A stretch of DNA of 36,301 nucleotides from Desulfotignum sp. (lineage in GTDB: Bacteria > Desulfobacterota > Desulfobacteria > Desulfobacterales > Desulfobacteraceae). The stretch spans positions 1-36,301 of the forward strand of contig JAABUB010000033.1 in the NCBI GenBank assembly GCA_011389575.1. Reading direction: 5' to 3'. Under the pieces are notes generated by a model. The model searched no databases. It saw only the letters and a list, made by a program, of their open reading frames with translations, and was not told the DNA's origin. A program made the position numbers and the translations under genes. Below, piece by piece: positions 1,301-7,154 of this stretch; positions within the stretch are counted from its first letter, which is position 1, and each line of letters starts with the position of its first letter.

Positions 1301-2065
1301 ATGAGCTGGCTGGGAAAAATGATCGGGGGCACCATTGGATTTGCTTTGGGCGGGCCCATTGGTGCTGTGGCAGGGGCGGCATTCGGCCATGCCTTTGTGG
1401 ATAAAAAAGAAGATGCCTACCTTACCTCTATTTCAGGAAGAAGCGGGTCACTGTCTTCCAATGAAGAAGCCCAGCTGGTTTTTTTTACTGCGGCATTTTC
1501 CATGCTGGCAAAGTTGTGCAAGGCAGACGGACAGGTAAGCGAAAAGGAAATCCAGGTGGTGGAAGAATTCATGAAACAGGATCTCCAGCTGGATGCCACG
1601 GGACAGGAAACTGCCAAAAACATATTCAGGCAGGCTGTCCAGTCCAAAGAAAGTTTTGATGCTTTTGCCCTGCAGTTTTATTCTGTGTTCAGGTCCCAGC
1701 CCAATATTATTGCCCTGATGATGGATGTTTTGTTCCGGGTGGCAGCCGCGGACGGCAGGCTGGCAGATGCAGAAGAAGCCACCCTGCTTTCCGCTGCCAG
1801 AGTTTTTAATGTCTCAGACACGGATTTCAACCGATTGAAATCAAAACATATCCGTCAGACCAACAAATACTATGCAGTTCTCAAGTGCGATGAAACCGCA
1901 TCCAACGAAGAGATCAAAAAAAAATACCGCTCTTTGGCCACGGAATACCATCCGGACAAAATCCAGGCCAAAGGCCTTCCCGAAGAATTTGTCAAATTCG
2001 CCAATGACAAATTCAGGGAAATTCAGGAAGCCTATGACCAAGTCAGAAAAGAACGCGGTTTTTAA
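1301..2065 (+). CDS. djlA: DjlA-like co-chaperone (glycine-zipper membrane anchor, TerB-like domain, J domain)
   Basis: A 254-residue protein with the three-part DjlA layout. Residues 7-32 are a glycine/alanine-rich membrane segment (MIGGTIGFALGGPIG). Residues ~55-175 are a helical TerB-like domain with two acidic D-G motifs (KADGQVSEKE and AADGRLADAE). Residues ~188-254 are a C-terminal J domain with the essential HPD motif (EYHPDK, H217-P218-D219). J domains stimulate the ATPase of a DnaK partner; a DjlA-type protein would do this at the inner membrane. The start at 1301 is preferred over 1256 because the extra 15 residues precede the membrane anchor and AAGG lies 10 bases ahead of 1301. 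The stop codon overlaps the stop of the convergent Fe-S gene (shared TTAA, 2062-2065). No dnaK is nearby. Confidence 0.85.
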   Translation: MSWLGKMIGGTIGFALGGPIGAVAGAAFGHAFVDKKEDAYLTSISGRSGSLSSNEEAQLVFFTAAFSMLAKLCKADGQVSEKEIQVVEEFMKQDLQLDATGQETAKNIFRQAVQSKESFDAFALQFYSVFRSQPNIIALMMDVLFRVAAADGRLADAEEATLLSAARVFNVSDTDFNRLKSKHIRQTNKYYAVLKCDETASNEEIKKKYRSLATEYHPDKIQAKGLPEEFVKFANDKFREIQEAYDQVRKERGF

Positions 2066-3126
2066 AAAAGTCCTTTTTCCCCGGCAATGCGCATGTATGT
2101 ATCCACCAGGGTCTGGGGCGGTTCCCACCGTTCCATCTCTTTTTTGTCGGTCAAAAACATGGCATCATATTCACAGGCTGTCACGCACAGACCGCATCCG
2201 ATACATCTTTTTACATTGACCACTGCAATCATGCCTGTGTCATCCATGGCAACGGCATCCATGGGGCAGATCTGTTCACAGGCCTGGCAGCCGGTGCAGC
2301 TGTTGTCATCCACATCTGCCTGAAAGTTGGAATTGACCAGTCTGGCCGGTGCAGTAGATTTTTTGATATTGCTTAAAATCTGACAGCAGCAGTCACAGCA
2401 CAGGCATATATTGACAGGTTTTACCGTGTTGGAGGGCTGGGGAACCAGACCCTGTTCAACCCCTTTGTGGATGATGTCCAGGGCCTCATCCCGGGTGATG
2501 GTCCGGCCGATACCCCGGCTTTCGTAAATGTATGCCCCGCCACCGAATACCAGGCAGGCTTCTTCCATTTTGCCGCAGCCTTTGTCCACCATCTCATGTT
2601 CCCTGCGGCAGATGCAGGGTGCCACCAGAATTTTGGATTGCTGCCTGATCAGATTTTCCAGGCGTTCATGGTCCATGATGTGCAGCTGCGTGTTGATGGA
2701 TTTTTCTACCGGCACCACCCTGAGCTGTTTGGTTTTGTTTTTATTCTGGGATTTTATGAGATGGGGGACATATTCATTGAAATCTGCAATCAGCTGCCTG
2801 GTCAAGCGGTTTACCTGGTACTCCCAGATGCCCACCACAAACTGCAGCAGCATGAATGTGTCTGTGTTGTTTTTTTGGATATGAAGAATAAGGCCTTTCT
2901 CCCCCATTTTTTTGAGAACCGGTAAAATTTGCTGCTCCGGCTTTCCAACCTTTTCGGCAATGGTGTCTGCCGGTTCCGGCATCATGACCAGACACAGGGC
3001 CAGGTGTGCTTCTTTTGGAGAGAACAATTGTTTGAGAATGCGCAGTTCAACTCCGGATTCTGTGGGAGGAAATCCGCCCGGGGTATTGTCCAGGTGAACA
3101 GCCAGCTTTTTATATACATCTTCCAT
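2062..3126 (-). CDS. winged-helix-like N-terminus plus polyferredoxin (two 4Fe-4S motifs and two extra Cys clusters)
   Basis: A 354-residue protein of unknown role. Residues ~28-85 look like a winged helix (LKQLFSPKEAHLALCLVM, then VLKKMGEKGLILHIQ). Residues 171-191 carry C171-I-C-R, C184 and C191, and 241-248 carry a dense cluster CLCCDCCC. The C-terminus has two classical ferredoxin motifs: C277/C280/C283 with C287, and C308/C311/C314 with C318. The ferredoxin part should bind two [4Fe-4S] clusters and carry electrons; the other cysteines could hold another cluster or metal. Related proteins are common in anaerobic deltaproteobacteria with no agreed function as far as I know. It lies 66 bases downstream of mtaB on the same strand, so it may be the last gene of the tRNA-sulfuration operon or transcribed separately. 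GGGAG precedes the ATG at a slightly long spacing. Confidence 0.75.
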   Translation of the reverse strand: MEDVYKKLAVHLDNTPGGFPPTESGVELRILKQLFSPKEAHLALCLVMMPEPADTIAEKVGKPEQQILPVLKKMGEKGLILHIQKNNTDTFMLLQFVVGIWEYQVNRLTRQLIADFNEYVPHLIKSQNKNKTKQLRVVPVEKSINTQLHIMDHERLENLIRQQSKILVAPCICRREHEMVDKGCGKMEEACLVFGGGAYIYESRGIGRTITRDEALDIIHKGVEQGLVPQPSNTVKPVNICLCCDCCCQILSNIKKSTAPARLVNSNFQADVDDNSCTGCQACEQICPMDAVAMDDTGMIAVVNVKRCIGCGLCVTACEYDAMFLTDKKEMERWEPPQTLVDTYMRIAGEKGLF

Positions 3127-3192: not shown

Positions 3193-4512
3193 TCAGGGGA
3201 AAACGGTCTGCAGTTTTCCAAAAATTTGCAGGTTACTATCACATTGTTCACATACAAGATCAACTATTTTTCCCTTGATGTGATCGGTTTTTTCCAAAAA
3301 CACATTAAGGTAGTTGGTTGTCACTGCAGTGAGGTGCCCTGTGTGTGGATCCTGTTTGTGCTGCACCACGCCTTCCAGAGTTTGACCCATATTGGCCGCA
3401 ATAAAGGCAGCCTTTTTTTGTCGTCCCAGTTCCCGGAGTCTGCTGCAACGCGCTTTGATGACGGATTCATCCACCTTTGGGGTAAAAGAAAAGGCAGGGG
3501 TGCCCTGTCTGGGAGAAAAGGGAAACACATGAAGATAGGAAACCGGCAGCTTTCTGATCAGGTTAACGGTGTTTTCAAACTGCTGGTCGGTTTCCGTGGG
3601 AAATCCTGCCAGTACATCCACTCCTATGCCGGCGGACGGTAGTTTTTCATGGATTCCCAGGACAGTGTCTGTGAAAAATCCGGCTGTATAGGGCCGTTTC
3701 ATTTTTTTTAAAATGGTGTCATCCCCTGATTGCAGCGGGATATGAAAATGGTCGCACAGAATGCCGGACGGCACTGCCAGCTCCAGGAGCCGGTCGTCGA
3801 TTTCATTGGGCTCAATGGAGGAAAGCCGGATCCGGTGCACCGGTTTTTTTTCCTGGATGGTTTGTATCAGTCGGACCAGACTGGACCGGGCTCTCAGGTC
3901 CCGACCGTACAGACCTGCATGGATTCCTGTGAGGATCACCTCGTTGAACTCCTTTTGCCCGAGTGCTTCCAGGTGCTGCAAAACCCTGTGTTCAGGCATG
4001 CTCACAGAAGAGCCTCTGGCATAGGGCACAATGCAGTAGGTGCAGAATGCATTGCACCCATCCTGGATTTTCAGGTAGGCCCTTGTCATGCCGCCGTGAA
4101 CCGGCTTTTCAAATGACTGGAACCGGTTGTCAGGACAGTGATCCGGAGGTTTGAATGCCAGGGGGGCGGTCTTTGGGCGGGCAAAAACGTGATCGATGAT
4201 ACGGGTTTTGTCCTGGTGGCAGACCACCTGCAGGGAATCCCCGATTTTGGGGATACGTTCAGGTTCTGTCTGGGCATGGCAGCCGGTTACAATGATTTTG
4301 GCCCCCGGGTTGTCCCTGGCAAGTTTCCGGACAGCCTGGCGGGACTGCATCCCGGCCCTGGCTGTGACCGCGCAGGTGTTGATGATGCACACATCGCAGG
4401 TCTCGCCTTTTTTGGCCCGGACCATGCCTTTGTCTTCAAGGCTTGCGGCAACCCCGTCGGATTCATACTGGTTGACCTTGCATCCAAGGGTTTTGATATA
4501 AAAGGTCTTCAT
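3193..4512 (-). CDS. mtaB: tRNA N6-threonylcarbamoyladenosine (t6A37) methylthiotransferase MtaB
   Basis: A 439-residue MiaB-family radical-SAM methylthiotransferase. The N-terminal UPF0004 domain shows TLGCKVNQYESD, CIINTCAVT and VTGCHAQ; these three cysteines hold the auxiliary cluster. The radical-SAM triad is in CNAFCTYCIVPYARG. The C-terminus (~375-439) fits a TRAM-like RNA-binding domain. The KTLGCKVNQYES opening and absence of MiaB hallmarks favour MtaB, which converts t6A37 to ms2t6A in ANN-decoding tRNAs, over MiaB. Length is normal. The ATG at 4510-4512 overlaps the mnmA stop in an ATGA arrangement (4509-4512), which indicates translational coupling. Both enzymes insert sulfur into tRNA, so the pairing makes biological sense. 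Confidence 0.92.
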   Translation of the reverse strand: MKTFYIKTLGCKVNQYESDGVAASLEDKGMVRAKKGETCDVCIINTCAVTARAGMQSRQAVRKLARDNPGAKIIVTGCHAQTEPERIPKIGDSLQVVCHQDKTRIIDHVFARPKTAPLAFKPPDHCPDNRFQSFEKPVHGGMTRAYLKIQDGCNAFCTYCIVPYARGSSVSMPEHRVLQHLEALGQKEFNEVILTGIHAGLYGRDLRARSSLVRLIQTIQEKKPVHRIRLSSIEPNEIDDRLLELAVPSGILCDHFHIPLQSGDDTILKKMKRPYTAGFFTDTVLGIHEKLPSAGIGVDVLAGFPTETDQQFENTVNLIRKLPVSYLHVFPFSPRQGTPAFSFTPKVDESVIKARCSRLRELGRQKKAAFIAANMGQTLEGVVQHKQDPHTGHLTAVTTNYLNVFLEKTDHIKGKIVDLVCEQCDSNLQIFGKLQTVFP

Positions 4513-5552
4513 TGAATAATACCGGATCCTGATACCCTTTTTCCTTTATAAAACACCGCTGCCTGGCCCGGGGTGATGGCATACTGGGGATGTTTGAAAA
4601 CAACTCTCCCCGCAGCTCCTTTGCGAAAAAGCCTGGATTCAGATTCTTTGTGGTGGTACCGGATTTTGGTTTTCAGTTCCTGGGCATTATCACTGTCTGG
4701 ATCATTCCACATAATACTATCCACTGCCATGTCCGTCTGGGCCAGGTCCTGCTTGAAACACACATGCAGGGTATTTGTCACCGGGTCGATTTTTCTCACA
4801 TAATAGGGTTCAGGTGCCGGACAGTTGATTCCCCGGCGCTGGCCTATGGTAAATCTGAAAACCCCGGTATGGGTTCCTACTTGCCTGCCGTTGATATCCA
4901 GCACAGGGCCTTTTTGGGACGTCATCCCTGTTTTGTCAGTAATAAATTCACAAAATCCTGTGCTGGAAATAAAGCAGATATCCTGGCTTTCCTTTGCACT
5001 GATGGGGGCAATATTATGGCGGACAGCCAGATCTTTGACTTTGCCCTTGGTAAAATCCGCCAGAGGGCACAGAATCCGGGAAAGCTGGTGACAGGAGAGC
5101 CGGGCCAGAAAATAGGACTGGTCTTTTTTTTCATCTGTTCCTTTTTCAAGCCAGGCACAAGAAATATCCTGGTCCGGCCGTGTCAGTGTGTTGACAACGG
5201 TAGCATAATGGCCGGTGGCCAGATAATCCGCCCCCAGTTTTTTTGCCTGTTCAAGCAGGATTCCAAATTTGATTTTCTGGTTGCAGACCATGCAGGGGTT
5301 TGGGGTCTGGCCCTGGATATAGGTGGATACAAAATATTTTACCACCTTTTGTTCAAAGGCTTCCGACAGATCCAGGTAGACAATATCCATTTTCAGCTGG
5401 TCTTTGAGAGATGCCATGTTTTTTGGTCCTTGTTCATATCCAGTGGTAAAATGCAGGCCAAATACATGGGCATATTTTTTTTTCAATAAAAAGCCTGCTA
5501 CCAGAGAATCCACTCCTCCGCTCAGGGCAACGGCTATGACCGGGGTTTTCAT
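4509..5552 (-). CDS. mnmA: tRNA-specific 2-thiouridylase MnmA, CxxC type
   Basis: A 347-residue enzyme that adenylates and thiolates U34 of Lys, Glu and Gln tRNAs. The PP-loop is SGGVDS (residues 11-16). The first cysteine region reads TPNPCMVCNQKIKF, with C87 and C90; the second is ESQDICFI with C193. In E. coli MnmA the equivalent of C87 is an aspartate (DxxC), so this is the three-cysteine (CxxC...C) form. As far as I recall, such cysteines have been proposed to bind a catalytic [4Fe-4S] cluster in related thiolases. The frame is open to 5618, but the ATG at 5550-5552 starts exactly at the conserved MKTPVIAVALSGG and overlaps the upstream stop by one base (TGATG). It is sandwiched between a NIL-ferredoxin gene and mtaB. 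Confidence 0.95.
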   Translation of the reverse strand: MKTPVIAVALSGGVDSLVAGFLLKKKYAHVFGLHFTTGYEQGPKNMASLKDQLKMDIVYLDLSEAFEQKVVKYFVSTYIQGQTPNPCMVCNQKIKFGILLEQAKKLGADYLATGHYATVVNTLTRPDQDISCAWLEKGTDEKKDQSYFLARLSCHQLSRILCPLADFTKGKVKDLAVRHNIAPISAKESQDICFISSTGFCEFITDKTGMTSQKGPVLDINGRQVGTHTGVFRFTIGQRRGINCPAPEPYYVRKIDPVTNTLHVCFKQDLAQTDMAVDSIMWNDPDSDNAQELKTKIRYHHKESESRLFRKGAAGRVVFKHPQYAITPGQAAVFYKGKRVSGSGIIQ

Positions 5553-5983
5553 CAGACCATGGCTTCCATTGCTTTGGAAAACAGTCCCATGGCCCGGCTG
5601 GGGCAGGTCAGGATGCACAGTTCACATACAGAACATTTTTCTTTGTCAAATACAACCCGCATTTCAGGACGCTCTATATACAGGGCACTGGTGGGACAGA
5701 CGGCAGTACAGGCCCCGCAATGGGTACATATTTCTTCATCCTTGAAGATCTGGTGTTCAGGCGAGGATACCTGCACTCCTTGTTCCTTGAGAAAGGCAAT
5801 TCCTTTATTGAATCCAGCCCGTGAAGCTGCAGAAATTTCCATTACCATGACCCCTTCTCTGCGGTTGGAAATTTTCGCACTCAAAATATTGAACAGCAGG
5901 TCAAATTTTTTAACCAGCTGACAGACCAGGGCTTTTTCAGCCACTTCCGGGGGAAAATTCAAAATAACGATTTTTGCGTACAA
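5552..5983 (-). CDS. NIL domain plus two-cluster ferredoxin protein
   Basis: A 143-residue protein. Residues ~2-76 match the NIL fold (YAKIVILNFPPEVAEKALV, later GVMVMEISA), and the C-terminus has two [4Fe-4S] motifs: C86/C89/C92 with C96, and C117/C120/C123 with C127. The frame is open to 6190, but the start is best placed at the TTG at 5981-5983: AGGAG lies seven bases ahead, and the NIL domain begins on the next codon. NIL-ferredoxin proteins in methanogens and sulfate reducers have been linked to sulfide-based homocysteine synthesis. Here it is the first gene of an operon with two tRNA-sulfuration enzymes, so a role in delivering sulfur or electrons to MnmA or MtaB is an inference worth testing. 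Its stop overlaps the mnmA start by one base. Confidence 0.82.
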   Translation of the reverse strand: MYAKIVILNFPPEVAEKALVCQLVKKFDLLFNILSAKISNRREGVMVMEISAASRAGFNKGIAFLKEQGVQVSSPEHQIFKDEEICTHCGACTAVCPTSALYIERPEMRVVFDKEKCSVCELCILTCPSRAMGLFSKAMEAMV

Positions 5984-6043: not shown

Positions 6044-6072
6044 ATTATAATGAATACGTACAAAAAAGGCAA
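6044..6072 (-). promoter_or_regulatory. promoter of the NIL-ferredoxin/mnmA/mtaB operon
   Basis: On the minus strand a perfect -10 TATAAT (6044-6049) lies 17 bases from TTGCCT (6067-6072). Transcription would start near 6037, giving a leader of about 50 bases to the TTG start at 5983. Confidence 0.55.
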
Positions 6073-6135: not shown

Positions 6136-6207
6136 CCCCCTGGGGGTGCCGTGTGACAGGATCGTCAGATGCCAATCTCGGGCCGGTCACACGGCACCCC
6201 CCGGGGG
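6136..6207. repeat. large inverted repeat (16-bp perfect core stem)
   Basis: GGGGGTGCCGTGTGAC at 6142-6157 pairs perfectly with 6186-6201 across a 28-base loop. The stem continues through one mismatch to 6136 and 6207 (CCCCC with GGGGG). It is not followed by a T run in either direction, so it looks more like a REP-type palindrome than a simple terminator. Confidence 0.75.
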
Positions 6208-6475: not shown

Positions 6476-7154
6476 ATGAATCCATTTGCATTTAAGCTGT
6501 CCACCTATACTCTGAAATATCTTTCCGGTTTTTCCCGGGCACGGATTCAGATCCAGGGCCAGGAAAATATTCCGGCAGGGTCTGTGGTTTTTGCGCCAAT
6601 CATTTTACCCGCATTGAAACGGTGTTTCTTCCCCACCATATCCATACCATTACAGGAAAACAGGTCTGGTCCCTGGCAGCCCGGGAGTTGTTCCAGATAC
6701 CGGTACTGGAAGGCTATCCTTATAAACGGAACGGCATTGATCGGTATGAATTCGCCTGCAAGGTATATTGTGCCATTACCTGTCTGGTTTTAAATAAAAC
6801 GGATAAATCTGAAGGGGGATGACCAGGGAGTTCATTGACAACCATCCGGAAAATCCCCATACCAATTATCTGCGCAATCCTGTTTCCGGGGTGCATCAGC
6901 TGGCATAACTCATGTTACAGCTGGAACCTAAATTAAAAACCATTGAAAAACAGGTTCTGGTGGTCCAGTCCAGAAAGGACCCGGTGGTGAATCCCAAAGG
7001 AATACAAAAATTGTTCAATCAACTGGGATCAGATAGTAAAGAATTTTATCTTTTTGATTATGACTGCCAGGGCCTTTTTCAGACACCCCAAAAGAAGATC
7101 TATGTGTTTCCTGGCACCAGCATCATGGTAGCAGGTTCCAAAAGAAATTTCTGA
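6476..7154 (+). pseudogene. decayed PlsC-like acyltransferase / alpha-beta hydrolase fusion gene
   Basis: The gene starts well (AAAGG then ATG at 6476; residues ...QGQENIPAGSVVFA) but shifts frame near 6598. The next frame reads ANHFTRIETVFLPHHIHTIT, the acyltransferase NH-x4-acid motif, and runs to 6822. A third frame begins around 6819 with FIDNHPENPHTNYLRNPVSG, meets an in-frame TAA at 6906-6908, and continues with VLVVQSRKDPVVNPKG, the end of an alpha/beta hydrolase, then FDYDCQG, where a catalytic-His region (FDYDRHG-like) would be expected. Intact relatives, as I recall, join both domains in one much longer protein, so at least one frameshift, one nonsense change and a large internal deletion have occurred. 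The 3' end runs into the convergent ATPase gene. No product is expected. Confidence 0.75.

Follow-up and report, generated by a model that had tools for sequence, protein, structure and literature searches.

A NIL-ferredoxin of a sulfide-assimilation family recurs beside the tRNA-thiolation gene mnmA in Desulfobacterota

We analyzed a stretch of 36,301 nucleotides from Desulfotignum sp. (contig JAABUB010000033.1 of assembly GCA_011389575.1, positions 1 to 36,301; hereafter the window), in which three genes of the minus strand, each overlapping the next, code for a ferredoxin with a NIL domain (NIL-ferredoxin, 5983-5552), the tRNA U34 2-thiouridylase MnmA (5552-4509), and the tRNA t6A37 methylthiotransferase MtaB (4512-3193). 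The pairing of the first two genes recurs across the phylum. In the most economical reading, this NIL-ferredoxin may well be the ferredoxin of L-ASST, a system of sulfide-based sulfur assimilation, co-expressed here with genes of tRNA thiolation. A direct feed from the ferredoxin to MnmA is possible, and gene content and order cannot choose between co-expression and such a hand-over.

The original prediction on this DNA described three overlapping genes with TGATG and ATGA junctions, and its coordinates are exact. On the minus strand, TGATG (5554-5550) holds the stop codon of NIL-ferredoxin and the start codon of MnmA, which overlap by 1 base, and ATGA (4512-4509) holds the start of MtaB and the stop of MnmA, with a 4-base overlap. 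The first gene of the cluster (5552..5983, minus strand, 143 amino acids) starts with TTG in the window and with ATG in most aligned relatives. The NIL domain and two ferredoxin clusters announced for its product were recovered by profile search (PF09383 at 52.3 bits, cut-off 24, together with two 4Fe-4S stretches). Residues 1-74 of its structural model resemble the NIL domain of the methionine transporter MetN (3tuz, Z 13.0, root-mean-square deviation (rmsd) 1.2, 73 residues aligned), the ferredoxin half of the model being of low confidence. MnmA (4509..5552, minus strand, 347 amino acids) exceeds the cut-offs of TIGR00420 (281.8 bits, cut-off 236.95) and NF001138 (325.8, cut-off 284), and its model, with a mean predicted local distance difference test score (pLDDT) of 91.9, best matches MnmA/TrmU 2hma over its full length (Z 39.5, rmsd 2.1, 339 aligned). 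The list of fold matches also includes LarE (Z 12.3-14.1) and NcsA (6scy, Z 12.2); the MnmA entries 9hln and 9hlv, found by sequence, are not in it, and we conclude nothing from that. MtaB (3193..4512, minus strand, 439 amino acids), a radical S-adenosylmethionine enzyme, was identified by its family score (TIGR01579, 411.3 bits, cut-off 357.05).

The pairing of NIL-ferredoxin and MnmA is widely kept. We compared 59 genomes of the order, i.e., the window's own and 58 relatives ranging from genus to order in 24 families, and found that NIL-ferredoxin directly adjoins MnmA, in the same order and on the same strand, in 53 of them. The six exceptions (genomes and loci are given by the handles G and L, and contigs by C) have NIL-ferredoxin at a contig end (G002, G041), not found (G018, G042), or unlinked (G048, G053). 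We then used a sample of 138 genomes of the phylum, at least 90% complete except for the window's own (83%), which is among them, and E-value thresholds of 1e-14 for NIL-ferredoxin, 1e-40 for MnmA, and 1e-40 for HcyBio (PF01837), the enzyme of L-ASST that forms homocysteine. NIL-ferredoxin was found in 100 genomes and MnmA in 132, with 98 having both. The two genes lie within 8 kb of each other in 56 of these 98 genomes (26 of 45 families): 34 have NIL-ferredoxin immediately upstream of MnmA in the same orientation, 16 have the two close by on one strand, and 6 have them close by on opposite strands. In the remaining 42, the distance exceeds 8 kb or, in most cases, the genes are on different contigs. 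Genes scattered at random in a 3.5-Mb genome would be linked at this distance in about 0.45 of the 98 genomes, and the pairing is more than chance. Across 124 NIL-ferredoxin loci, the order NIL-ferredoxin, IscS, (sometimes NifU,) MnmA, MtaB occurs in 10, HcyBio sits between NIL-ferredoxin and MnmA in four others (L104-L107), and IscS adjoins NIL-ferredoxin on the same strand in 19.

The pairing is nevertheless limited to some lineages. A NIL-ferredoxin of the Desulfovibrionaceae type (from G095, contig PHAR01000002.1, whose nearest named kin is Humidesulfovibrio) was scanned against named genome contigs, and 80 loci were kept of 130 matches. These loci span Desulfovibrionaceae, Desulfobulbaceae, Desulfurivibrionaceae, Desulfocapsaceae, Desulfoarculaceae, two named Desulfobacterales, unnamed Deltaproteobacteria and Proteobacteria, and one Latescibacterota (L326). 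None of the 80 has MnmA, MtaB, IscS, or HcyBio in its flanks, which reach up to 5 kb a side and less in truncated loci. The survey as a whole covers one phylum plus the single Latescibacterota locus.

In line with the original prediction, passages of two papers place the NIL-ferredoxin family in sulfide-based sulfur assimilation leading to homocysteine (PMC5764234, PMC12068725). The first describes NIL-ferredoxin and a DUF39 protein (HcyBio) as both required for Desulfovibrio vulgaris Miyazaki to make methionine (PMC5764234). In the second, the Methanosarcina pair MA1821/MA1822 is named L-ASST, its ferredoxin subunit is called 'likely involved in electron supply', and the NIL domain is said to bind methionine (PMC12068725). 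Compared by description, the window protein has the same NIL plus ferredoxin architecture as the ferredoxins of these systems (MA1822, DvMF_0262), whose partners are the HcyBio/DUF39/COG1900 proteins MA1821 and DvMF_1464. The likeness extends to the presence of HcyBio in the same genome and to its co-occurrence with NIL-ferredoxin throughout the phylum. The difference is one of position: the window NIL-ferredoxin precedes mnmA-mtaB, does not stand beside HcyBio, and belongs to a clade that is mostly not linked to HcyBio.

Of the 138 genomes of the phylum, 97 gave a match to HcyBio, and all 97 hold a NIL-ferredoxin. We favor the L-ASST reading because no genome with HcyBio lacks NIL-ferredoxin, while 34 genomes with MnmA have no detected one. 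In the window's own genome, we found a single NIL domain and a single HcyBio, the latter on another contig (G000:C51:2410-3483, E 4.5e-154). A single NIL domain and one HcyBio were also found in four genomes made of one contig (G027, G045, G083, G146), where the only NIL-ferredoxin must serve HcyBio, if HcyBio needs one. G175, a genome of the same order that is 99% complete, yielded neither NIL-ferredoxin nor HcyBio, and its MnmA and MtaB lie side by side. In this order, the single NIL-ferredoxin gene heads an apparent operon with mnmA and mtaB, by which homocysteine synthesis and tRNA thiolation would be expressed together, and MnmA would form 2-thiouridine at position 34 (s2U34) through the kind of [4Fe-4S] chemistry that has been put forward for enzymes of the CxxC type. 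For the cluster in the window, a role in L-ASST together with co-expression would leave no need of a direct hand-over to MnmA.

Several observations weigh against the L-ASST reading. NIL-ferredoxin and HcyBio are linked in 37 of the 97 genomes (14 of 44 families), less often than NIL-ferredoxin and MnmA, so adjacency to HcyBio is no strict criterion for an L-ASST ferredoxin. Among the 95 genomes with all three genes, NIL-ferredoxin is linked to both partners in 17, to MnmA only in 38, to HcyBio only in 19, and to neither in 21. Two genomes, G077 (95% complete) and G181 (90%), have a NIL-ferredoxin and no HcyBio that we could find. In a third one (G114), a looser search found pieces of HcyBio at contig ends; with only two incomplete genomes left of three, the occurrence of NIL-ferredoxin without HcyBio was dropped as a natural experiment. 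Finally, passages of the Methanosarcina study report that deletion of L-ASST in M. acetivorans left growth in minimal medium unaffected and created no need for methionine (PMC12068725), so the pathway is not indispensable everywhere.

The phylogeny of the NIL-ferredoxins adds to these difficulties. Our tree of 124 sequences, a quick one with many open forks and with an uneven choice of rows that favors linked loci and the window's order, contains a small clade of 17 rows (Shimodaira-Hasegawa-like approximate likelihood-ratio test, SH-aLRT, 98) and a large one of 105 (SH-aLRT 97); two rows fall outside both. Every member of the small clade is beside HcyBio, and 9 of the 17 are near MnmA as well; in the first cluster motif of this clade, the second cysteine is followed by T (in one case S). 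The large clade has G at that position and includes the window protein; 76 of its 105 members are near MnmA, 18 beside IscS, and 9 near HcyBio. Three genomes (G037, G061, G176) hold one NIL-ferredoxin of each clade, which would suit a separate role for the second form. However, the four one-contig genomes mentioned above have only the large-clade kind and do have HcyBio, so the large-clade NIL-ferredoxin probably serves L-ASST too. The Desulfovibrionaceae proteins are placed in the same part of the tree as the window protein, and a grouping of them with the HcyBio-linked form is not rejected (approximately unbiased test, p 0.714, the constrained tree scoring higher); DvMF_0262 itself is not among the sequences placed.

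The search also returned some less usual members of these two families. G056 has a second NIL-ferredoxin (L060:3521-3934) beside an IscS-type gene, outside both clades, whose reading frame seems to break off behind the first cluster motif. A second NIL domain lies in a 178-amino-acid frame, outside the NIL-ferredoxin search results, in G077 (G077:C176:12124-12321) and in G114 (G114:C8:3638-3835), where it shares the contig whose edge carries a piece of HcyBio. Another kind of HcyBio relative, whose match runs longer (about 1.2 kb in unbroken copies) and whose E-value is weaker (about 1e-64 to 1e-102), was found in addition to the usual one in G001, G002, G007, G021, G023, G024, G081, and G187; it is the sole kind listed in G002 and is in pieces in G007.

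The cysteines C87, C90, and C193 that had been pointed out in the window MnmA are invariant in all 25 MnmAs aligned from the order, a set that contains the window's own. The window enzyme has CxxC where E. coli MnmA, which works with the IscS-TusABCDE relay, carries DxxC, and the same reaction is expected of both. CxxC had been put forward as a mark of the gene module, to be contrasted with DxxC in a survey of neighborhoods, and this idea fails: all 132 typed MnmAs have CxxC, including 34 from genomes without detected NIL-ferredoxin, and the motif is thereby ruled out as a marker of the pairing. The type is also already in print, since passages of one paper distinguish C- and D-type MnmA and describe, for Campylobacter and Helicobacter, a variant of the C-type that lacks the first CC motif (PMC11784392). 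The window MnmA resembles C-type enzymes such as that of Thermus thermophilus in its CxxC and third cysteine, its PP-loop, and its full MnmA fold. It differs from them by having no cysteine in the region of the first CC motif, like the variant just cited, and its cluster content is a prediction; a [4Fe-4S] cluster has been reported for the Thermus MnmA in passages of another study (PMC8584467). The [4Fe-4S] sulfur transferases NcsA, TtuA, and LarE share the PP-loop fold, and three cysteine ligands are reported for NcsA in part of one paper (PMC10067955), but these are other families, LarE and NcsA being 17-20% identical to the window MnmA over the aligned part.

Six CxxC MnmAs lack the third cysteine (G079, G087, G088, G116, G124, and G149, at loci L214, L166, L132, L215, L102, and L100). 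ESQDF replaces ESQDxCF in these proteins, and their first motif is ACYGP in five and ACFGI in one. They may represent an additional subtype of MnmA in which the third ligand is a different one. The third cysteine is present in the MnmAs of G106, G122, and G172, and the sequence of G078 is truncated there.

A rather unlikely alternative is that NIL-ferredoxin also serves MnmA directly, with a desulfurase and not instead of it. The desulfurase would bring a persulfide (S0), the reduced ferredoxin would give two electrons, and a hydrosulfide would be freed on the open iron of the MnmA [4Fe-4S] cluster, from where it would attack the adenylated U34; chemistry favors this persulfide-release form because sulfide itself should need no electrons. 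The linkage to MnmA recurs in both NIL-ferredoxin clades, the desulfurase gene is part of the cluster in the 10 loci and beside NIL-ferredoxin in the 19 described above, and the window protein belongs to a clade separate from the HcyBio-linked one, three genomes having both forms. Passages of the literature leave room for such a step: the route of sulfur to the cluster of [4Fe-4S]-type MnmA is disputed and its release from the persulfide is called unclear (PMC11784392), and the NcsA cluster is held by three cysteines, with a free iron site proposed to bind sulfide (PMC10067955). However, the 34 genomes with a CxxC MnmA and no detected NIL-ferredoxin show that NIL-ferredoxin is no general need of MnmA. 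In addition, the two genes are unlinked in 42 of 98 genomes and unpaired in the 80 loci of the Desulfovibrionaceae-type query, and no MnmA-NIL fusion was noticed, fusions not having been searched for systematically. It seems doubtful to us that a branch of the L-ASST ferredoxin became a reductant of tRNA thiolation, turning persulfide into hydrosulfide on the MnmA [4Fe-4S] cluster and serving both homocysteine and s2U34 synthesis in this phylum.

That the genes have no functional link, and that an old gene order persists through descent and a shared promoter, is improbable. The adjacency is inherited over much of the NIL-ferredoxin tree, and 42 of the 98 genomes manage without it. Yet the label 'near MnmA' needs at least 21 changes on this quick tree with many open forks, where some unlinked rows merely end at a contig edge, and the linkage is found in both clades, in different families, and with different neighbors.

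The mechanism first proposed for this cluster, in which NIL-ferredoxin hands sulfide to MnmA and replaces a cysteine-desulfurase relay, now appears very unlikely. It could draw on the use of sulfide by methanogen NcsA in vitro, described in part of one study (PMC10067955), and on the absence of the first CC motif from the window MnmA, a motif missing in 78 of 98 MnmAs of NIL-positive genomes versus 11 of 34 of NIL-negative ones. This trend comes mainly from one clade, and a tree-aware test with 6 independent pairs on starred branches (mean 1.4 in the expected way, 0.0 in the opposite one, 4.6 without difference) was not significant, nor could it have been with so few informative pairs; CC-motif loss was therefore rejected as a sign of a changed sulfur route. 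Moreover, a cysteine desulfurase is not replaced in this system. The window's own genome encodes an IscS/NifS-type desulfurase (C84:92-1249) sharing 63% identity with its counterpart in the NifU-IscS-NIL cluster of G048, another protein of this type sharing 42%, and two TusA-family proteins (C82; C105, the latter in a 215-amino-acid frame). IscS-type desulfurases occur in 51 of the 59 genomes of the order and TusA-family proteins in 52, and IscS lies within the cluster itself in 10 of the 124 loci. By chemical reasoning, the attack of sulfide on adenylated U should need no electrons, and hence no ferredoxin.

We give little credence to NIL-ferredoxin as the electron donor of MtaB, a radical enzyme that requires low-potential electrons: it is near MtaB and not MnmA in 6 genomes (G088, G113, G121, G166, G189, G194) but near MnmA with MtaB elsewhere in 13, MtaB is found above the cut-off in 116 of the 138 genomes, more than NIL-ferredoxin, and MnmA adjoins MtaB independently of NIL-ferredoxin, in 18 of 24 scored NIL-negative versus 53 of 88 scored NIL-positive genomes (at least 112 of the 132 MnmA genomes have MtaB above the cut-off and could be scored). 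The original interpretation is left with its conserved pairing and its sulfur-assimilation family, and loses the CxxC mark, the replacement of the desulfurase, and the specific link to MtaB.

Around the cluster, a sigma-70-like promoter match (TTGCCT-17-TATAAT, 6044..6072, minus strand) lies about 60 bases upstream of the NIL-ferredoxin start; it is a consensus match only, in a region with 10 such sites on both strands for 5.3 expected. Further upstream, at 6136-6207, we found a G+C-rich inverted repeat with two 25-base arms, 92% complementary, and 22 bases between them. Positions 6476-7103 (plus strand) hold the remains of a broken gene, in four pieces similar to a 720-amino-acid protein. The intact counterpart is a single open frame in G006 (L062), divergent and upstream of NIL-ferredoxin, which we judged by eye to have an acyltransferase-like start and a hydrolase-like end. 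On the other side, a fourth gene (2062..3126, minus strand, 354 amino acids) has two 4Fe-4S stretches by domain search and a weak TrmB-like match below the cut-off; of 13 other loci from the window's family with enough flank, a number counted by hand, 7 have this gene after MtaB. No Rfam family scored above its gathering threshold in the window, where a control by riboswitch was looked for, and no tRNA or tmRNA gene was found there.

Both CxxC-type MnmA and the L-ASST ferredoxin were already known. Among the matches listed in open-licence full-text papers, we found none joining MnmA or thiolation with NIL-ferredoxin, homocysteine, or L-ASST, and the recurring pairing of NIL-ferredoxin and mnmA hints at a shared handling of sulfur. 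It makes NIL-ferredoxin a candidate partner of MnmA: a ferredoxin of sulfide assimilation is linked to this enzyme in 26 of 45 families, in some loci together with a desulfurase. Even if the link is one of co-expression only, it would tie methionine synthesis to the thiolation of the wobble base in a large group of anaerobes.

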